A stretch of 64,000 nt of DNA from a virus: IMG/VR virus record IMGVR_UViG_3300028536_000014, positions 124,001-188,000 of that record. One strand, 5' to 3'. Below, one piece after another: positions 6,303-30,429 of the stretch. The notes beneath the pieces are model-generated. The model was not told the DNA's origin, did not search any database, and worked only from the letters and a program-made list of their open reading frames with translations. The position numbers were made by a program, and so were the translations under genes. The first letter of the stretch is position 1; each line of letters starts with the position of its first letter.

Positions 6303-6629
6303 ATGTCGACCAAACCTTATGTGATTTCCCGTAGAAATGCTCCTGGGAAATATTTAGTAATCAATATTTCTAAGTTCGTTGTTGTTCCAACAACGATCGA
6401 AGAACTTATCGATAAACTAGTTCAGCATCCTGAAGCGGTTGAATTTGATTGTGGTATTGGACAACAAAATGAAGCCTTTGTTATAAAGCTTAAGGACATT
6501 CATTCTCGAGCTGCTTTAATGGGCTACGCAATCAGTGCTAAGGAAGATGAGCCTGGTTATGCACAACAAGTTAAGGAATTGGCTGAACGTTCTGGTATTT
6601 ATAGCCGTTATTGTAAGACGCCTGATTAA
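6303..6629 (+). CDS. Small protein coupled to the terminase gene, 108 aa
   Basis: A 108-residue protein of unknown family whose TAA stop shares a base with the ATG of the terminase gene (TAATG), so the terminase is likely translated by coupling. It has an AGGAA Shine-Dalgarno before ATG at 6303. It is a small alpha/beta protein with a Lys/Glu-rich helical C-terminus. Position just before terL would suit a small terminase subunit, but I see no helix-turn-helix signature and make this only a suggestion. Confidence 0.72.
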   Translation: MSTKPYVISRRNAPGKYLVINISKFVVVPTTIEELIDKLVQHPEAVEFDCGIGQQNEAFVIKLKDIHSRAALMGYAISAKEDEPGYAQQVKELAERSGIYSRYCKTPD

Positions 6630-9196
6630 TGTTACTTTTTGAAAAAGATTGGAATGAACTTTATCCAACAGCGATAGTTCATTACGATTGTCCGAACAAA
6701 AGCTTTCTTCATTATGCCCAGTTACTTAAAGCGATGGGTATAAAGAACTGGGCATGGTGTCTTGCTTTAATTCATTCGGAATTAAGACATGTCGATCCGT
6801 TTAATCCAAATCTTACGTTGGATCAACAACTTCTGATTACTCTGGAGTGCAAACTAAATCCTTGGTATTATTTTCGCTCTGTAGCAAGAGCTATTGGAAG
6901 TACGTCAGATACACCTATTTATTTTAACGCTAATCGTTCTAACATGGCGTTGTATTGGTTATTTTTTAATCACATTACAGTTTGTTTACTTCAACCAAGA
7001 CAGACGGGTAAAACATTTGGTTCAACATCTTTAGATACTTATCTTTTAAATATCGCAAGTACGGGTGGTCGAACACTACTTCTAACTAAAGATGAACAAC
7101 TTAGAGCTAAGACATTAAGTGAAATTAAAACGATTGAAGAATTATTACCGTTTTATCTTCGTCAACATAATAAACACGACATAGGAAATCGTGAAGAAAT
7201 AAATGTTTCTTCATTAGACAACAATTATAAAGCGTTAATTGCTAGAAACGATCCTATTGCAGCAGATAAAACAGGTAAAGGTCATACTGTAGAAAACGTT
7301 CGAGTTGATGAATTCGCATTCCTGTTTTATATTAGCATTGCTTTATCGTCATTACTACCTGTAACAACAGCTGCACGTAAGACCGCTGAAATAGTAGGTA
7401 AACCCTACGGTAATATTTTCATGACAACGGCTGGTAAAAAAGACGATAGAGATGGCGCTTTTGCTTTTAATTATTTCAATTCTGGTGCGCCGTGGACAGA
7501 GTTTCTATTTGATTGTGCGAACATAGAAGAACTTAGAAATGTTATTAAAAGTTCATCTAGAGATGGTAATATTCATCGTGTTCATTGTGTTTTTAATCAC
7601 CGTCAATTAGGATATACTGATGAATGGCTTCGAAATGTTGCTGCTGAGAATAGCTCTTACGGAGAAGCATTCGAACGTGATTATCTTAATATCTGGACAT
7701 CAGGTAGTCAAAATAGTCCGTTGACTGTTGAGGAATCAAAGAAGGTTAGAGATTCTCAAACAGAAATTAAATACGCTGAGATATCTAAATACGGTCAAAT
7801 CGTTCTTCGTTGGTATATCAGAGAAGAAGAAATTAAACGTGTAATGTTAAACGAATATACCGTGGCTGCAGTAGATACAAGTGACGGTATGGGTAAGGAC
7901 GAGATCGCACTGAATATTCGTCACCTTAAGACAGGTGAAATTCTTGCAGTTTGTGGGATTAATGAAATCAATCTCATTACCGTTTCGAATTTCTTTGTTG
8001 AACTTCTAAAGATTTATCCTAAATTAACAATGATTATTGAGCGTCGTAATCAAGCAGCTAGTATTGTTGATTACATGCATAAACAACTAATTGCTGTTGG
8101 GATAGATCCATTTAGACGACTCTTCAATATGGTTGTTCAGGAGCATATGGAATATCCTGAACGTTATGCCGAAATACAAGAACGAAGAAATATCGGTAAT
8201 GAGAATTTCCTTGCTCAGTATAAAAAATATTTTGGGTTCACGACATCAGGAGGAGGTACTACTTCTCGTTCTGAACTCTACGGAACAACATTTCGTGCAG
8301 CAGTGAAATATACAGGCGATCTAATTAAAGATAAACCCACTATCGATCAGCTTCTTGCACTTATTATTAAGAATGGACGAGTAGATCATCCAACAGGTGG
8401 TCATGATGATCTTTGTTTCGTTGGTTCTACCCTAGTAAGAACTATAAAGGGTAATATACCGATTTCTGAATTAAAGATAGGAGATCTAGTATTAACTAGA
8501 GAAGGTTACAAACCTATACTCTACATTTATAATAGAGAAAAAGAAGTTATTAGTAAGTTTGGTTTAACAGGAACAGCCAACCATCCTTTCATTACCCCAA
8601 ACGGAGAAATACCGTTTGAAGATCTTACATTAGAGAGTGTTGTGTACACATGGCACGAGAATCTATCGAGTATAGCGGAAAAACGTATCATAGATATCTT
8701 GAATCATAAAGACTACACATCCAAAGATATTACTCAAGAAATAAAGCTGATGAAGTCAGAAGGAAGAAAAGAGAAAGTTTACAATCTATTAGTGGCTGAT
8801 TGTCATGAATATTTTGTTAATGATATTCTAGTTCATAACTGCGTTTCATGGTTATTGAGTTATTGGTTCATGTCTCAAGGAAAAAATCTCCAGTATTATG
8901 GAATTCCTTCTAACTATGTTTTGTCTCAAAATCAAGTTATTCATTCTCATGCTAATAGAGAAGAGATGTATCAGCTTGAACTTTCTCGTCGTGCAAAAGA
9001 ACACATCGAAAAACTTATAGAAGCTATTCGTAAAGAGCGAGATCCTAATGTATCTGAACGTCTTGTGTATGAAATAGAAAGTGTTAAAAGACTTTTAGGT
9101 GATCAACATGAGGTATCGCTATCAGTCGATGCAATGTTAAGTGAAATCAAGAAACAAAAGATACTAAAGTATTCGGTAAAACGATCACTCTATTGA
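6629..9196 (+). CDS. terL: Terminase large subunit with embedded mini-intein
   Basis: The DNA-packaging motor. The N-terminal ATPase has Walker A QPRQTGKT at 122-129 and Walker B VRVDEFAF with D227-E228. The C-terminal RNase H-fold nuclease has D416 (AAVDTSDG), E471 (IIERRNQ) and the third acidic motif GGHDDL at 590-595. Straight after HDDL the frame continues into a 142-residue intein (residues 596-737), then resumes with CVSWLLSYWFM, the normal continuation of the nuclease. Translation gives 855 residues; the spliced terminase would be 713. No Shine-Dalgarno is evident at 6629, in keeping with overlap with the upstream gene. It corresponds to phiKZ gp25 by position. Packaging presumably requires intein removal because the insertion splits the catalytic motif from its helix. 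Confidence 0.93.
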   Translation: MLLFEKDWNELYPTAIVHYDCPNKSFLHYAQLLKAMGIKNWAWCLALIHSELRHVDPFNPNLTLDQQLLITLECKLNPWYYFRSVARAIGSTSDTPIYFNANRSNMALYWLFFNHITVCLLQPRQTGKTFGSTSLDTYLLNIASTGGRTLLLTKDEQLRAKTLSEIKTIEELLPFYLRQHNKHDIGNREEINVSSLDNNYKALIARNDPIAADKTGKGHTVENVRVDEFAFLFYISIALSSLLPVTTAARKTAEIVGKPYGNIFMTTAGKKDDRDGAFAFNYFNSGAPWTEFLFDCANIEELRNVIKSSSRDGNIHRVHCVFNHRQLGYTDEWLRNVAAENSSYGEAFERDYLNIWTSGSQNSPLTVEESKKVRDSQTEIKYAEISKYGQIVLRWYIREEEIKRVMLNEYTVAAVDTSDGMGKDEIALNIRHLKTGEILAVCGINEINLITVSNFFVELLKIYPKLTMIIERRNQAASIVDYMHKQLIAVGIDPFRRLFNMVVQEHMEYPERYAEIQERRNIGNENFLAQYKKYFGFTTSGGGTTSRSELYGTTFRAAVKYTGDLIKDKPTIDQLLALIIKNGRVDHPTGGHDDLCFVGSTLVRTIKGNIPISELKIGDLVLTREGYKPILYIYNREKEVISKFGLTGTANHPFITPNGEIPFEDLTLESVVYTWHENLSSIAEKRIIDILNHKDYTSKDITQEIKLMKSEGRKEKVYNLLVADCHEYFVNDILVHNCVSWLLSYWFMSQGKNLQYYGIPSNYVLSQNQVIHSHANREEMYQLELSRRAKEHIEKLIEAIRKERDPNVSERLVYEIESVKRLLGDQHEVSLSVDAMLSEIKKQKILKYSVKRSLY
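8414..8839 (+). mobile_element. Mini-intein in terL (142 aa, no endonuclease)
   Basis: The frame-preserving insert starts with Cys596 (CFVGSTLVRT, block A), has a block B GTANHPFITP with the TxxH-type His, and ends with block F VYNLLVADCHEYFV and block G LVHN, followed by Cys738 as the +1 nucleophile. These are the splicing residues of a class 1 intein: Cys1, block B His, penultimate His, terminal Asn, Cys+1. At 142 residues it has only the Hint splicing fold and no LAGLIDADG or HNH endonuclease. The host site is the terminase nuclease active-site motif. Confidence 0.92.
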
Positions 9197-25657: not shown

Positions 25658-27352
25658 TTAATAATTTACATCACTTTTAAGTGGAATATCTAGATAACCG
25701 ACTTGAGCTTCTTTACCAAGATCGCATTTGTTCTTAGGATAAGCTAAAGTACCGATAATCATTGTATTAAGACGACCTTTGCTTTCATGGGTTATTTGAT
25801 GAAGCAGTTGTTGTGAGATTCCTAGTCTTTGGAAGATTCCATGAATACTCCATCCGACTTGAGAATTCTTTAACCCAGGTTCTTTTCCTAAGAGCCCACG
25901 ATAAATTGCGTTAAATTCTAGTTCAGTTAAAGGTTTGGTTCTATTTAATTTAACCATCTCAGGGTTTTCACGGAAAGCTCGATTAATAGCTTTCACGACT
26001 TTGTAAATAACTTTTGGATATTTTCGTAATCTTGCTATTGCATCTTGAGTAATAAAATCAATATCCGTTACAACTGAGAAGCGAATGTGATATTGATTAC
26101 GAAGCGTCATCATAGCTGTTGATGAAATATTTAAACTACTATCTACAGTAATATGACTATAATTTTGTATGATATTGTTTTGATATAAATCCACATGAAA
26201 AATGGATTTATATGGTTGATTAAGATAAGGGTATTCTGATTCGATAAGGAATTGAAGAACATCATCATCTAGTACGACATCTCCCAATTCTTGGAGAGAA
26301 AGAATACTTGATTGATCAGTTTCAGTAATTTGTCCTAGTGCTTGAATAATACCTGCTGTAAAACGCATATAGCTTGCAGGTTTAAAATCATCGAATATTG
26401 GAATTTTAATAACTCCATCTTCTGCTTTGATGCGATCCATATCGGTATCAGCTCTGAAGATTCTTAAAGCGCGCTGAGTTCTACTTGAATCAACTGTTGA
26501 TCTTGCAATAGCGCGTGTCTCATCAGACGTAAAGCTGACAAATTCAAGAGGCATCTCTTGATTATGAACCATGATTGGATATCGAAGATGTGATCCAATT
26601 GGTTTATCATAATTAAAACGATATGTAAATCCAATTGACCACATTCCACCTTCTTTCTCTTTGACAGGTTTTGTTGGAAGACCTTCAAACTCATAAATAC
26701 CATAGATTTCAGTTTGAGTTTCAGCAACTGCAAAAACAGAATCTTGACCTACAATATCACCCACAACTGTTAAACGAGGAGTGGTGTGAGTTTTAATATA
26801 TTGATCAAATGTCTGACCATAAGGTGCTTGTGTTTCCCGTAAGGTATAGACTTGTTTGATAATGTCATAAAATTTCTTATGTAGATTATAGTGATATTGA
26901 ACAGTATGTACATTGATATCACGAAGACGTGCAACATTCATTCGAATCTCTTGAAGCCAGCGAGTGGCTTCTGTTTGACTCGGACAACTATAATTAAAAG
27001 TGACTGTCACGTTATGTTTAGCATAAACAGGTGATAGTATAAGTCCTAAAAGACGATCTTCTAAGATTGGAGTATATTCATTTCCATTGAAGAATGTTGG
27101 AGATATTTCTTCTCTATCGATTTCTTCCTCAACGGTAATTTCGTTCATTCGTTTACTGGTTGTGGCAACATAACGATCATCTTTACTATCAATCGTTCCA
27201 CTAGACGTTGCAACTTTCTTATCATCATCAGGAAAGTAGATGATCGCATCCTTCATCTTAGTGATGTCTTGGACTTGTTTCACGACCGCTATTACAACCG
27301 GACGAAAAATACTTTGTTGCGTTTCGGGCAATGCGGTATGTATATTCGGCAT
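25658..27352 (-). CDS. Probable virion/baseplate structural protein, 564 aa
   Basis: A 564-residue soluble protein starting at ATG 27352, back-to-back with the tail-fibre gene (starts only 48 bases apart). It has mixed alpha/beta sequence without enzymatic motifs. Proteins next to large fibre genes in this phage type are usually baseplate or fibre-attachment components, which is my inference here. The C-terminal part (about residues 480-545) is Arg/Lys-rich. I cannot name the family. Confidence 0.68.
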   Translation of the reverse strand: MPNIHTALPETQQSIFRPVVIAVVKQVQDITKMKDAIIYFPDDDKKVATSSGTIDSKDDRYVATTSKRMNEITVEEEIDREEISPTFFNGNEYTPILEDRLLGLILSPVYAKHNVTVTFNYSCPSQTEATRWLQEIRMNVARLRDINVHTVQYHYNLHKKFYDIIKQVYTLRETQAPYGQTFDQYIKTHTTPRLTVVGDIVGQDSVFAVAETQTEIYGIYEFEGLPTKPVKEKEGGMWSIGFTYRFNYDKPIGSHLRYPIMVHNQEMPLEFVSFTSDETRAIARSTVDSSRTQRALRIFRADTDMDRIKAEDGVIKIPIFDDFKPASYMRFTAGIIQALGQITETDQSSILSLQELGDVVLDDDVLQFLIESEYPYLNQPYKSIFHVDLYQNNIIQNYSHITVDSSLNISSTAMMTLRNQYHIRFSVVTDIDFITQDAIARLRKYPKVIYKVVKAINRAFRENPEMVKLNRTKPLTELEFNAIYRGLLGKEPGLKNSQVGWSIHGIFQRLGISQQLLHQITHESKGRLNTMIIGTLAYPKNKCDLGKEAQVGYLDIPLKSDVNY

Positions 27353-27399
27353 GGTTTAGTTATCTCGTTGGTACCACAGAATCCCTCTTAGGAGTTAAG

Positions 27400-30300
27400 A
27401 TGCCTTCGCTTGTTGTTCCTCAAATCGAGTTGGATCGCCTGATTCAGTTAATATTGGATCATTACAAATTTCAATACGGAATCACCGTAACAGCCGACAC
27501 GATTACTGCTTCATTCATTCAACCTCGTGTCGGTTGGATAACAGGTTTTGAAATCGTCAGTAATAGTGATTCAGATAATTTTAGTTGTCGTTTTTATATT
27601 AACTATACTTCTGATTATAAATCAAATCTAGATCCTTTTCAGATTGAAGAAATCATTAACACATCTTATACATCCGGATTAGCGAATAATCGATATGTTT
27701 GCTATGCAGTTCTTCCCAGGACTCAGTTTCCAACACTATCTAAATATGTTTTTGTACCCGTAGACGACGGGGGTGGTGGAAGTCCAAGTACTTATACTGT
27801 AGGATTTCTACAAACAACCGGTAGTGTTGTTTCTGGTCAATCTCTTGACATCAATATTGGAATTGATAGCGCACCTTCTGCAATTGTTACAGCTCACTAC
27901 GCTTCTGCTAACGGAACCGCTGTAGCATCAGTAGACTATGTCGCTCTTGATGGAACTACAACGTGGGATGTTAATGATGGCGTTCAGAAAACAATTACAC
28001 TTTATACTGGTGAACCCTATTATTATCATTGGGTAGCCGGATATGATACATCGCAATTCACACTTGTTGACAGTGCCGATGGTCTTATTTATAATGCGAC
28101 GAATAACGATACCCAAAATACTTACTATCCAAGTATTCGCACTTTCAATCTCGCACTACCATCAGTAGATCAAAACTATTATCACGAGTTCTTATTTGGG
28201 CCTAATGGATTCCAACAGCATATAACTATTGAAATCGATATCAATACGGTCGATGGTAGCGGAAATACGAGTAGCTCATTTTACGCAGCGTATTTACAAT
28301 ACAATACAGGCACTAATGTATTTGATGCTCAAATCTATTCTACTTTTAATGGTCAAAATTTAACACCACCAAATCCAATTACGATGCCAGTTACCATTGG
28401 GTTCGAAATAAATCATGATTCGGCAATTAAGTTCTTTATTAATGATACTTGGTATAATGTCGATGACTTCAGTTTCAATTCTGATGCTTCTCAGATCGCT
28501 TTCTCTGATATGAGTTATCTATCTGGTTTGACAATTACGAGTGTTAATTTATTGATTACTTTTGATCTAACAACGAACGGTGGTGGATCAAATATCTTTG
28601 ATATGACTGCAAAGGTATCACCAAATCAAATCCATGTACCGTCAGATGCGATTAGTCCACCAGCTGGTTATATCGGAACGTCGGGTGGTACGCTAAGTCT
28701 CACGTTGAGTAATCCTAGCAGTAATGCTACAATTGGTACTACTACAGATAACATAACGATTTTAGATGCGAATGTTTGTTATCAGAAACTTATTGTGAAT
28801 GATGATGAAACCGGATTTGATAATTCAACTGGTTCCATCATAACAGGTTATGGTGGTATTCATTATCTCTATACGAATGTGAATTGGAGTAATACTACAT
28901 CAAGTTGTGGTGTTATTGCTGATCTTCGTTTAACTGCAACAAATGATCCAACTCAACTTGGTGTTACTGATTTTAGTCAGACGCCATTAACAGCAGCAGG
29001 AATTACTAACTTCCCAGTATTTCCAAACATCATGATCGATGATGTTCGAGAAGTTACTACGTTCTCATGGCCTAATGGTAAATTTCCAGTTTCTGGAAAT
29101 TTTAGTTTTAATACAACCGATAATGATCTTCCTTATAATCTTACCCTTAATTCAGATGGTAGTTATGAGGTAAAATTCAGATTCAGATCTTTCCCAATCT
29201 CTGGTCAAAGTAACTTGATGTATAAGTTAATGGATTATAATAATACAGATACGAAGGGTTCACTTCCTAAACTTAATAAACCCAGTCTATTAATCCAGTC
29301 TTATGACGGAACTAGTGCATACATCTTGATTTATTCAAACGATGTTTTATATGATCATACCGGTTCTGTAATTAACCAAGGTTATACTTTCACATATACA
29401 CTAGACGGCTCTGATCCTAATAGTGGTGGGTCAACCATTTCTTCAGGTAGTCAATTCCAGACTGCAGCTACTCCTGGAACGATTGTAAAATTTAAAGCAT
29501 CAGCTACAGGGTTCACTGATAGTGACGTATCAACCTGTACTTTGAACTACTTTACTCGTGATCTTACTTTCCCTTATTTGACAAATAGTATTTCTGGGAA
29601 TACAAATAACATTTTCTATTTCAATGCAGATGGACCATTTACTGGGTATGAAAGTATTCTGATTACACTTACTGATCAGAATTCTAGTCCTGGATCTGAC
29701 ACAATGGTATATTCTTTTGATGGAGAAACATGGCATGATTATACAGCACCATTTAGTTTCCCTGTAGGATGGAAAACTCCAATTGGTAAGGCTGGTTTTC
29801 CATCCGTATTTTACTATACCAAACAAGCAAATACACATACATCGAGTATTGCAAATCTTAATATCTTTATTGAATACCCCAGTCGTAATCTAACATTTGT
29901 TCCAAATCAAAATGATACAAGTGTTAGTGTTGCCAACAAAACAGTAACACTTGTCAATACAATTCACAACAATACTGAATTAGTTCCTGTTGCATATTTC
30001 CAAACACATGCAACATGTACGGATGATTTTCGTTATATCGAAATGAAATGTACCAATCTTGTTGATCAAGATGGAATTCTTCAGATTCATTTTAATTCTG
30101 TTGGATTTGGTCAAGACGGACATGTTTATCCGACCAATTATAGTCCTGTTAGTGTTCCAGCTCTTGCTTGGACTGTGGGTGATACACTTTGTTTCTGGTA
30201 TAATTATCTTAATGGATCGTTCCAAGTAAGAGTTAATAATGGTGCTTGGCAGAACACATCACAAGAATTGTTTTACACAACGTATTCTGAATTCAATATG

Positions 30301-30429
30301 GGAATTCAATATTTTGAGTCCAACGGTCATTCGTTGAATGGAAGTGCTTTCCAGCTTCATTCATTAGCGTCTGAATTTGAATTCGCTATTCCCTCTAACA
30401 CTCTTCCTACGGAAACTCTCACGCCATGA
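27400..30429 (+). CDS. Tail fibre/adhesin with beta-sandwich domains, 1009 aa
   Basis: I start at ATG 27400 (MPSLVVPQ), seven bases after TAGGAG, rather than 27331, which would overlap the divergent gene. Residues 1-127 are a compact N-terminal domain, probably for attachment. A GGGGSPS linker follows, then a Calx-beta-like domain (about 135-215: VGFLQTTGSVVSGQSLDI...NGTAVASVDYVA...WDVNDG). Several beta-rich domains come next, including a chitobiase C-terminal-like unit (YTFTYTLDGSDPNSGG...VKFKASATGFTDSDV, near 665-705) and a lectin-like C-terminal part. Such arrays bind host surface glycans. The stop overlaps the following gene in ATGA, tying it to a glycosyltransferase-like gene. Confidence 0.78.
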   Translation: MPSLVVPQIELDRLIQLILDHYKFQYGITVTADTITASFIQPRVGWITGFEIVSNSDSDNFSCRFYINYTSDYKSNLDPFQIEEIINTSYTSGLANNRYVCYAVLPRTQFPTLSKYVFVPVDDGGGGSPSTYTVGFLQTTGSVVSGQSLDINIGIDSAPSAIVTAHYASANGTAVASVDYVALDGTTTWDVNDGVQKTITLYTGEPYYYHWVAGYDTSQFTLVDSADGLIYNATNNDTQNTYYPSIRTFNLALPSVDQNYYHEFLFGPNGFQQHITIEIDINTVDGSGNTSSSFYAAYLQYNTGTNVFDAQIYSTFNGQNLTPPNPITMPVTIGFEINHDSAIKFFINDTWYNVDDFSFNSDASQIAFSDMSYLSGLTITSVNLLITFDLTTNGGGSNIFDMTAKVSPNQIHVPSDAISPPAGYIGTSGGTLSLTLSNPSSNATIGTTTDNITILDANVCYQKLIVNDDETGFDNSTGSIITGYGGIHYLYTNVNWSNTTSSCGVIADLRLTATNDPTQLGVTDFSQTPLTAAGITNFPVFPNIMIDDVREVTTFSWPNGKFPVSGNFSFNTTDNDLPYNLTLNSDGSYEVKFRFRSFPISGQSNLMYKLMDYNNTDTKGSLPKLNKPSLLIQSYDGTSAYILIYSNDVLYDHTGSVINQGYTFTYTLDGSDPNSGGSTISSGSQFQTAATPGTIVKFKASATGFTDSDVSTCTLNYFTRDLTFPYLTNSISGNTNNIFYFNADGPFTGYESILITLTDQNSSPGSDTMVYSFDGETWHDYTAPFSFPVGWKTPIGKAGFPSVFYYTKQANTHTSSIANLNIFIEYPSRNLTFVPNQNDTSVSVANKTVTLVNTIHNNTELVPVAYFQTHATCTDDFRYIEMKCTNLVDQDGILQIHFNSVGFGQDGHVYPTNYSPVSVPALAWTVGDTLCFWYNYLNGSFQVRVNNGAWQNTSQELFYTTYSEFNMGIQYFESNGHSLNGSAFQLHSLASEFEFAIPSNTLPTETLTP

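Follow-up and report, generated by a model that had tools for sequence, protein, structure and literature searches.

The large terminase (TerL) gene of a phiKZ-like jumbo phage carries an insertion which we read, with a probability of roughly 0.85, as a cis-splicing class 1 mini-intein at nuclease motif III of a phiKZ-type TerL, derived from a mobile intein family with an HNH homing endonuclease gene in frame +2, and with that homing gene decayed to a fossil in a linker. The window, that is, the whole stretch of 64,000 nucleotides that was analysed, lies within a virus record of 244,725 bases. The features on which this reading is built are as follows.

6629 to 9196, + strand: open reading frame of the TerL precursor, phiKZ-like by homology, 855 aa
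6629 to 8413, + strand: N-extein, residues 1-595, with GGHDDL at its end
7874 to 7876, + strand: Asp416, invariant in the alignment, probable nuclease motif I, assigned by position
8039 to 8041, + strand: Glu471, invariant in the alignment, probable nuclease motif II, assigned by position
8405 to 8410, + strand: Asp593-Asp594 of HDD, invariant in the alignment, nuclease motif III
8414 to 8839, + strand: class 1 mini-intein, 142 codons (142 aa), TerL residues 596-737, assigned by residues, Pfam and fold
8414 to 8416, + strand: Cys1 (TGT), the first splicing nucleophile
8573 to 8584, + strand: block B TANH, intein residues 54-57
8804 to 8806, + strand: block F His131
8834 to 8839, + strand: penultimate His141 and terminal Asn142
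8840 to 8842, + strand: Cys+1 (TGC), the second nucleophile and residue 1 of the C-extein
8840 to 9196, + strand: C-extein, 118 residues and stop, with CVSWLLSYW at its start

The coordinates and lengths given by an earlier, sequence-only reading (an 855 aa frame at 6629-9196, a 142 aa intein at 8414-8839 and a protein of 713 aa once this is removed) proved exact. Over its length, the TerL of the window is 33-40% identical to those of seven phages, and the intein-less 713-residue protein aligns through the insertion site with the TerLs of phiKZ, FLC9, SPN3US, BONAISHI and others. Relatives in IMG/VR were found only with an alignment as query, the single window TerL protein giving no match there; a megablast search of 24 kb against phages gave no match either, and a scan of genome contigs returned one relative only, a weak one in Palleronia. 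The alignment search yielded 80 TerL relatives with identities of up to 48%. No variation is seen at D416, E471, D593 and D594 across the aligned TerL relatives, and these residues we take, from their position and from what is known of the family, to represent the three TerL nuclease motifs.

The HDDL site is free of any insert in all of the 80 closest TerL relatives that were fetched, and in the alignment the inserted segment matches nothing in a normal TerL, the relatives reading HDDL-V-ISW. The sequence-only reading had placed the intein within the catalytic HDD motif, directly after the third nuclease motif; the latter position stands, while the insertion point lies outside HDD, one residue past it (HDDL|C). 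The residue at +1 is usually Val in the relatives and is Cys in 8 of the 76 aligned sequences, namely the window and seven intein-free relatives with readings such as HDDLCISW, HDDSCIAW and HDDGCVAW. The intein, therefore, required no change in its target protein. Larger inserts in FLC9 and similar matches ending near residue 596 were considered and ruled out, as these read HDDLVIGW or alike and are free of an insert.

Flanked by GGHDDL on the left and by Cys+1 and VSWLLSYW on the right, the segment presents Cys1, a block B TxxH, and an HN end followed by Cys+1, together with a HINT fold and a seamless empty site in intein-free relatives. Cys1 is invariant in the intein alignment (alignment A4), and its presence rules out a class 3 intein, which has no position-1 nucleophile and carries a WCT motif. 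When the insert alone was compared with Pfam, Hint_2 (1.4e-8) and PT-HINT (4.6e-7) both scored over their cut-offs and Intein_splicing (2.1e-6) scored under its own; the latter model, run over the virus record, detected no second intein. AlphaFold2, run with an alignment of 29 intein sequences (the window and the fetched loci), predicts a HINT fold with a mean pLDDT of 84.7, with 102 residues at 90 or above and values below 50 at residues 85-91 and 94-109 only; the model obtained without the alignment (pLDDT 44.7) was discarded. The top Foldseek matches of the model are solved inteins, namely gp41-1 (E 2.6e-8) and DnaB inteins. Among solved structures, gp41-1 (PDB 6qaz), which we take to be the natural split intein of a phage helicase, is also the best match by sequence (2.6e-5); unlike gp41-1, the window intein is contiguous and resides in a TerL. 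Residues, family models, predicted fold and the 80 intein-free relatives thus all bear out the earlier claim that this is a complete class 1 intein.

The intein is known from one sequence in one metagenomic record, and a second copy was not found. This leads to the question of whether it might be dead, leaving no working TerL, as would be the case in a defective phage genome or through an assembly artefact of the 244,725-base record. We consider this very improbable: no damage is seen in the catalytic residues, at either junction or in the 855-codon frame, even though the nested gene in the other frame (see below) has decayed, and the extein motifs conform to the invariant positions.

In the reading that we favor, TerL would be synthesised as an 855-residue precursor in which Cys1 would form a thioester to be attacked by Cys+1; the branched intermediate would then be resolved by Asn142 with His141, releasing a 713-residue TerL with an intact HDDLC motif and the predicted junction peptide GGHDDLCVSWLL. 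We infer splicing by this route because the residues are intact and the HINT fold is predicted, and likewise infer a loss of self-mobility and a dependence of packaging on splicing. With an intein in its nuclease active site, TerL should need protein splicing to be active; given that D593 and D594 are invariant, it is reasonable to suppose that the nuclease domain of the precursor is disturbed and that packaging would need splicing. Splicing could also constitute a regulatory switch, keeping TerL inactive until a late-infection signal releases it. Besides the interruption of the nuclease active site, it is in favor of such a switch that the authors describing Microcystis phage Mic1, which bears an intein in the TerL nuclease domain, proposed control of TerL by inteins (PMC7156551). 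The five mycobacteriophage TerL inteins that were tested, from a set located entirely in the ATPase domain, nevertheless spliced readily (PMC5050341), 80 TerL relatives do without an intein, and the HNH remains described below point to a mobile-element origin; hence, we regard a switch as unlikely.

When the intein alone was used in tblastn, other phage TerLs came first, and the plasmid matches retrieved were dismissed as remote HINT domains in other proteins. Alignment searches of IMG/VR returned 36 and 80 loci, gathered by the splicing domain and not by HNH. Most members of the resulting family are inserted 0-2 residues away from nuclease motif III of TerL, as is the window intein (HDDL|C), and their host TerLs are of several types (Terminase_3, Terminase_6, PHROGs 2, 38 and 979, and others). 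The nearest relative, L134, occupies the identical HDDL|C site in another TerL (HHSERGHDDL|CFIAGTRV...ILVHN|CDALALAALHF), is 49% identical over residues 1-94 (E 4e-26) and carries an HNH gene in frame +2. A FastTree analysis of the splicing parts places the window with L134-L138, all of them HNH-bearing, with a support of 0.80, a moderate value that rests on about 100 residues. These five share the site (HDDL|C, HDDR|C or HDD|C) and have the closest splicing-domain sequence, but are inteins of 240-316 aa in other TerL types with a nested +2 HNH gene, which the window copy is without. One +2-HNH member (L144:2313-3257) is found in an ATPase-like TerL motif (LIFTDDI|C) and not at motif III; the DNA at its site, GATGATATT|TGC, is similar to that targeted at motif III (GAYGAYNNN|TGY), which would fit homing that had tracked the DNA sequence into another domain.

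Full-length relatives span 240-364 aa in the TerL frame and have a middle part of odd composition which, when read on the same strand in frame +2, encodes an HNH endonuclease with zinc-finger cysteines. In nine of ten cases the nested gene matches Pfam HNH_3, at values between 3e-20 and 1e-12; the tenth, from Tetrasphaera phage TJE1, is clear with an HNH profile. All surveyed members with a nested HNH of this kind have it in frame +2; the profile is frame-blind, yet its ten training examples were all +2, so that it would overlook in-frame nucleases of other kinds. Across the overlap the TerL frame is open, with 0 stops against about 92 expected in 32 distinct inteins (those with HNH proteins <90% identical to each other; the expectation is the sum of per-intein means from synonymous shuffles of the HNH codons), and the third frame of the same overlaps contains 3 to 40 stops per intein. 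The possibility that the open frame is an artefact of cutting by open reading frame was ruled out by an uncut six-frame search of 1500 bases, in which 36 loci have an HNH in +2 and in none of them is the intein interrupted by a stop in the TerL frame; L138 was counted with two stops, both of which fall past its intein end. The same search showed other arrangements in L129 (+1), L161 and L177 (both antisense). The intein-like element of L129 (1421-2473), with an HNH match in frame +1 (E 2e-9), may be a case in which an out-of-frame nuclease arose independently.

Between paired relatives, most of the substitutions in the overlap are at third positions of HNH codons, which are second positions in the TerL frame (first/second/third HNH positions: 27/21/61 for L098-L100, 55/47/99 for L135-L136, and 77/76/127 for L014-L107), and the identity of the L135-L136 overlap is 0.59 in the HNH frame versus 0.33 in the TerL frame. 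The HNH protein is, therefore, under selection, and the TerL frame there is mainly kept open. An ATG precedes the HNH motif by 42-67 codons in 27 of 30 nested open reading frames; a ribosome-binding-like motif is present in only nine of the 30.

The window intein retains the beginning of such a gene:

8650 to 8754, + strand: fossil of the HNH homing-endonuclease gene, frame +2 of the intein, and disordered linker in the TerL frame, assigned by profile, alignment and model
8650 to 8652, + strand: ATG of the fossil
8707 to 8709, + strand: TAA of the fossil

The ATG is followed by 19 codons, the TAA, about 15 further homologous codons and then a deletion, homology ending at about 8754. Frame +2 of the window reads MARESIEYSGKTYHRYLES*RLHIQRYYSRNKADE at 8650-8754 and aligns without gaps to MERETIEYNGKKYNRYPNSKRRHLRVYYWRH of L134 and MERETIIYRGKKYHRYPQSKRRQLQVYFWRH of L135. 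When a profile of the HNH N-terminus was run over the 64 kb window in six-frame translation, the fossil was the best match (E 9.2e-6; next 2.2). Scored alone it reaches 20.0 bits, compared with a mean of -0.5 and a maximum of 14.8 for random recodings that keep the TerL-frame protein and the codon use of the gene itself; the fossil is 35 codons long, and its nearest relatives were part of the training set of the profile. The intein measures 819 bases in L134 versus 426 in the window, where the remainder of the HNH gene is missing, and in the AlphaFold2 model the fossil corresponds to the disordered linker, which contains all residues of pLDDT below 50.

An ordinary mini-intein with a plain loop, its HNH likeness in +2 being due to chance or a by-product of ancestry in the TerL frame, would accommodate the shortness of the fossil and its interruption by a stop, as well as the resemblance of the TerL-frame segment to that of L135 (YTWHENLSSIAEKRIIDILN versus YIWNEKLSSIEERSITDILN). 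Such an origin is nonetheless improbable, as none of the 1998 protein-preserving recodings scored matches the +2 score, relatives conserve this segment in the HNH frame but only loosely in the TerL frame, and the ATG and 30 ungapped positions line up with the HNH start. An intein descended from the mobile family targeting the motif III site, with the HNH gene nested in +2, would instead have suffered a nonsense mutation and loss of the 3' part of that gene in the window phage, leaving a fossil that would now serve only as an in-frame disordered linker. With a 35-codon, stop-interrupted remnant in place of an intact +2 HNH gene, the window intein is, judging by its sequence, a descendant and not a functional member of the out-of-frame-HNH inteins of TerL motif III; it can probably still splice but presumably no longer homes by its own nuclease.

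Other loci bear signs of similar events. A mini-intein at TerL motif III (L154:3001-3399) retains the zinc-finger end of the HNH in its +2 frame (E 3.6e-5) and is a candidate independent fossil. The inteins of vir335 (L011:2501-2896) and L117 (3001-4035) have near-identical splicing ends at the same TerL site and an HNH gene in L117 only, a putative recent loss or replacement of this gene. The out-of-frame HNH gene thus seems to have been lost several times.

In textbook inteins, the homing endonuclease is an in-frame domain. The inteins at the TerL nuclease motif, in contrast, quite likely constitute a widespread family in which one DNA is read in two frames, giving a contiguous self-splicing intein and a separate +2 HNH homing endonuclease. 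Splicing would thereby be uncoupled from homing, and a nuclease that is lost would still be recognisable as a fossil within the remaining intein, as it is in the window. If true, this would add a third architecture to those of inteins whose endonuclease is in frame and of split inteins whose halves are separated by a free-standing endonuclease gene; in it, an endonuclease in another frame of the same DNA makes selection on splicing and on homing separable base by base. The window intein would represent the next step of the homing cycle, the nuclease being lost and the start of the dead gene still legible in the linker. Our literature search did not find an out-of-frame endonuclease within an intein, though a 2025 preprint by Gosselin et al., the title of which reportedly refers to a non-canonical architecture, may report one. 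We therefore count the window intein as a further, new TerL intein and regard its family as a variant architecture that may have been described before.

Among the known TerL inteins, that of Mic1 is a mini-intein of similar size, also at motif III (DHL|C...SN|CDALRY) and also without an in-frame endonuclease; it differs in that its TerL is of another lineage and the intein itself branches more distantly, in that no clear HNH fossil is seen (HNH profile E 0.02 at best), and in that the ATPase domain contains a further, large intein (PMC7156551). The mycobacteriophage inteins likewise occupy active sites of phage TerL, but in the ATPase domain, and the active endonucleases tested are part of the intein itself (PMC5050341). 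Inteins are also contained in the TerLs of the PaBG group (PMC7412058). The ShiLan domain of mycobacteriophage DNA methylases resembles the present family in that its HNH with zinc fingers occupies the third frame and leaves the host frame open; it has no splicing domain and was reported as neither intein nor intron (PMC11855218), whereas the family described here consists of true inteins with HINT blocks and class 1 residues.

The virus record encodes phiKZ-type core genes (RNA polymerase subunits, DNA polymerase and sheath) and, outside the window, a homologue of the phiKZ nuclear shell (G000:C1:116389-117591; E 2.1e-16, 26% identity), from which the phage probably builds a phage nucleus. 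TerL would, therefore, act in a phiKZ-type life cycle. The intein lies where the packaging motor of a probably nucleus-forming jumbo phage has its nuclease active site. Also outside the window, a 302-codon frame has a weak HNH_3 match under the cut-off (G000:C1:78293-78379; E 1.3e-5), and within it an open reading frame of 1032 aa (27331-30429, + strand) lies between phiKZ-type genes and has no PHROG match at 1e-3.

Further intein-like segments were seen in other TerLs. L119 (679-4080) and L141 (1213-4104) each seem to have a second one upstream, as in Mic1, with a LAGLIDADG_3 match at residues 252-313 in the former and an intein-type PHROG match at 124-201 in the latter. Finally, Erwinia phage RisingSun (L010:1246-4542) and Pseudomonas phage GXNNA8 (L009:1261-4524) each have an insert of ~330 aa in TerL, located precisely at Walker A (RQQGK|...HN|TVSV); with no position-1 nucleophile, EHLW in block B, a Cys in block F and a THN end, it looks like a class 3 (WCT) intein, another TerL intein of phiKZ-related phages, unannotated as such.
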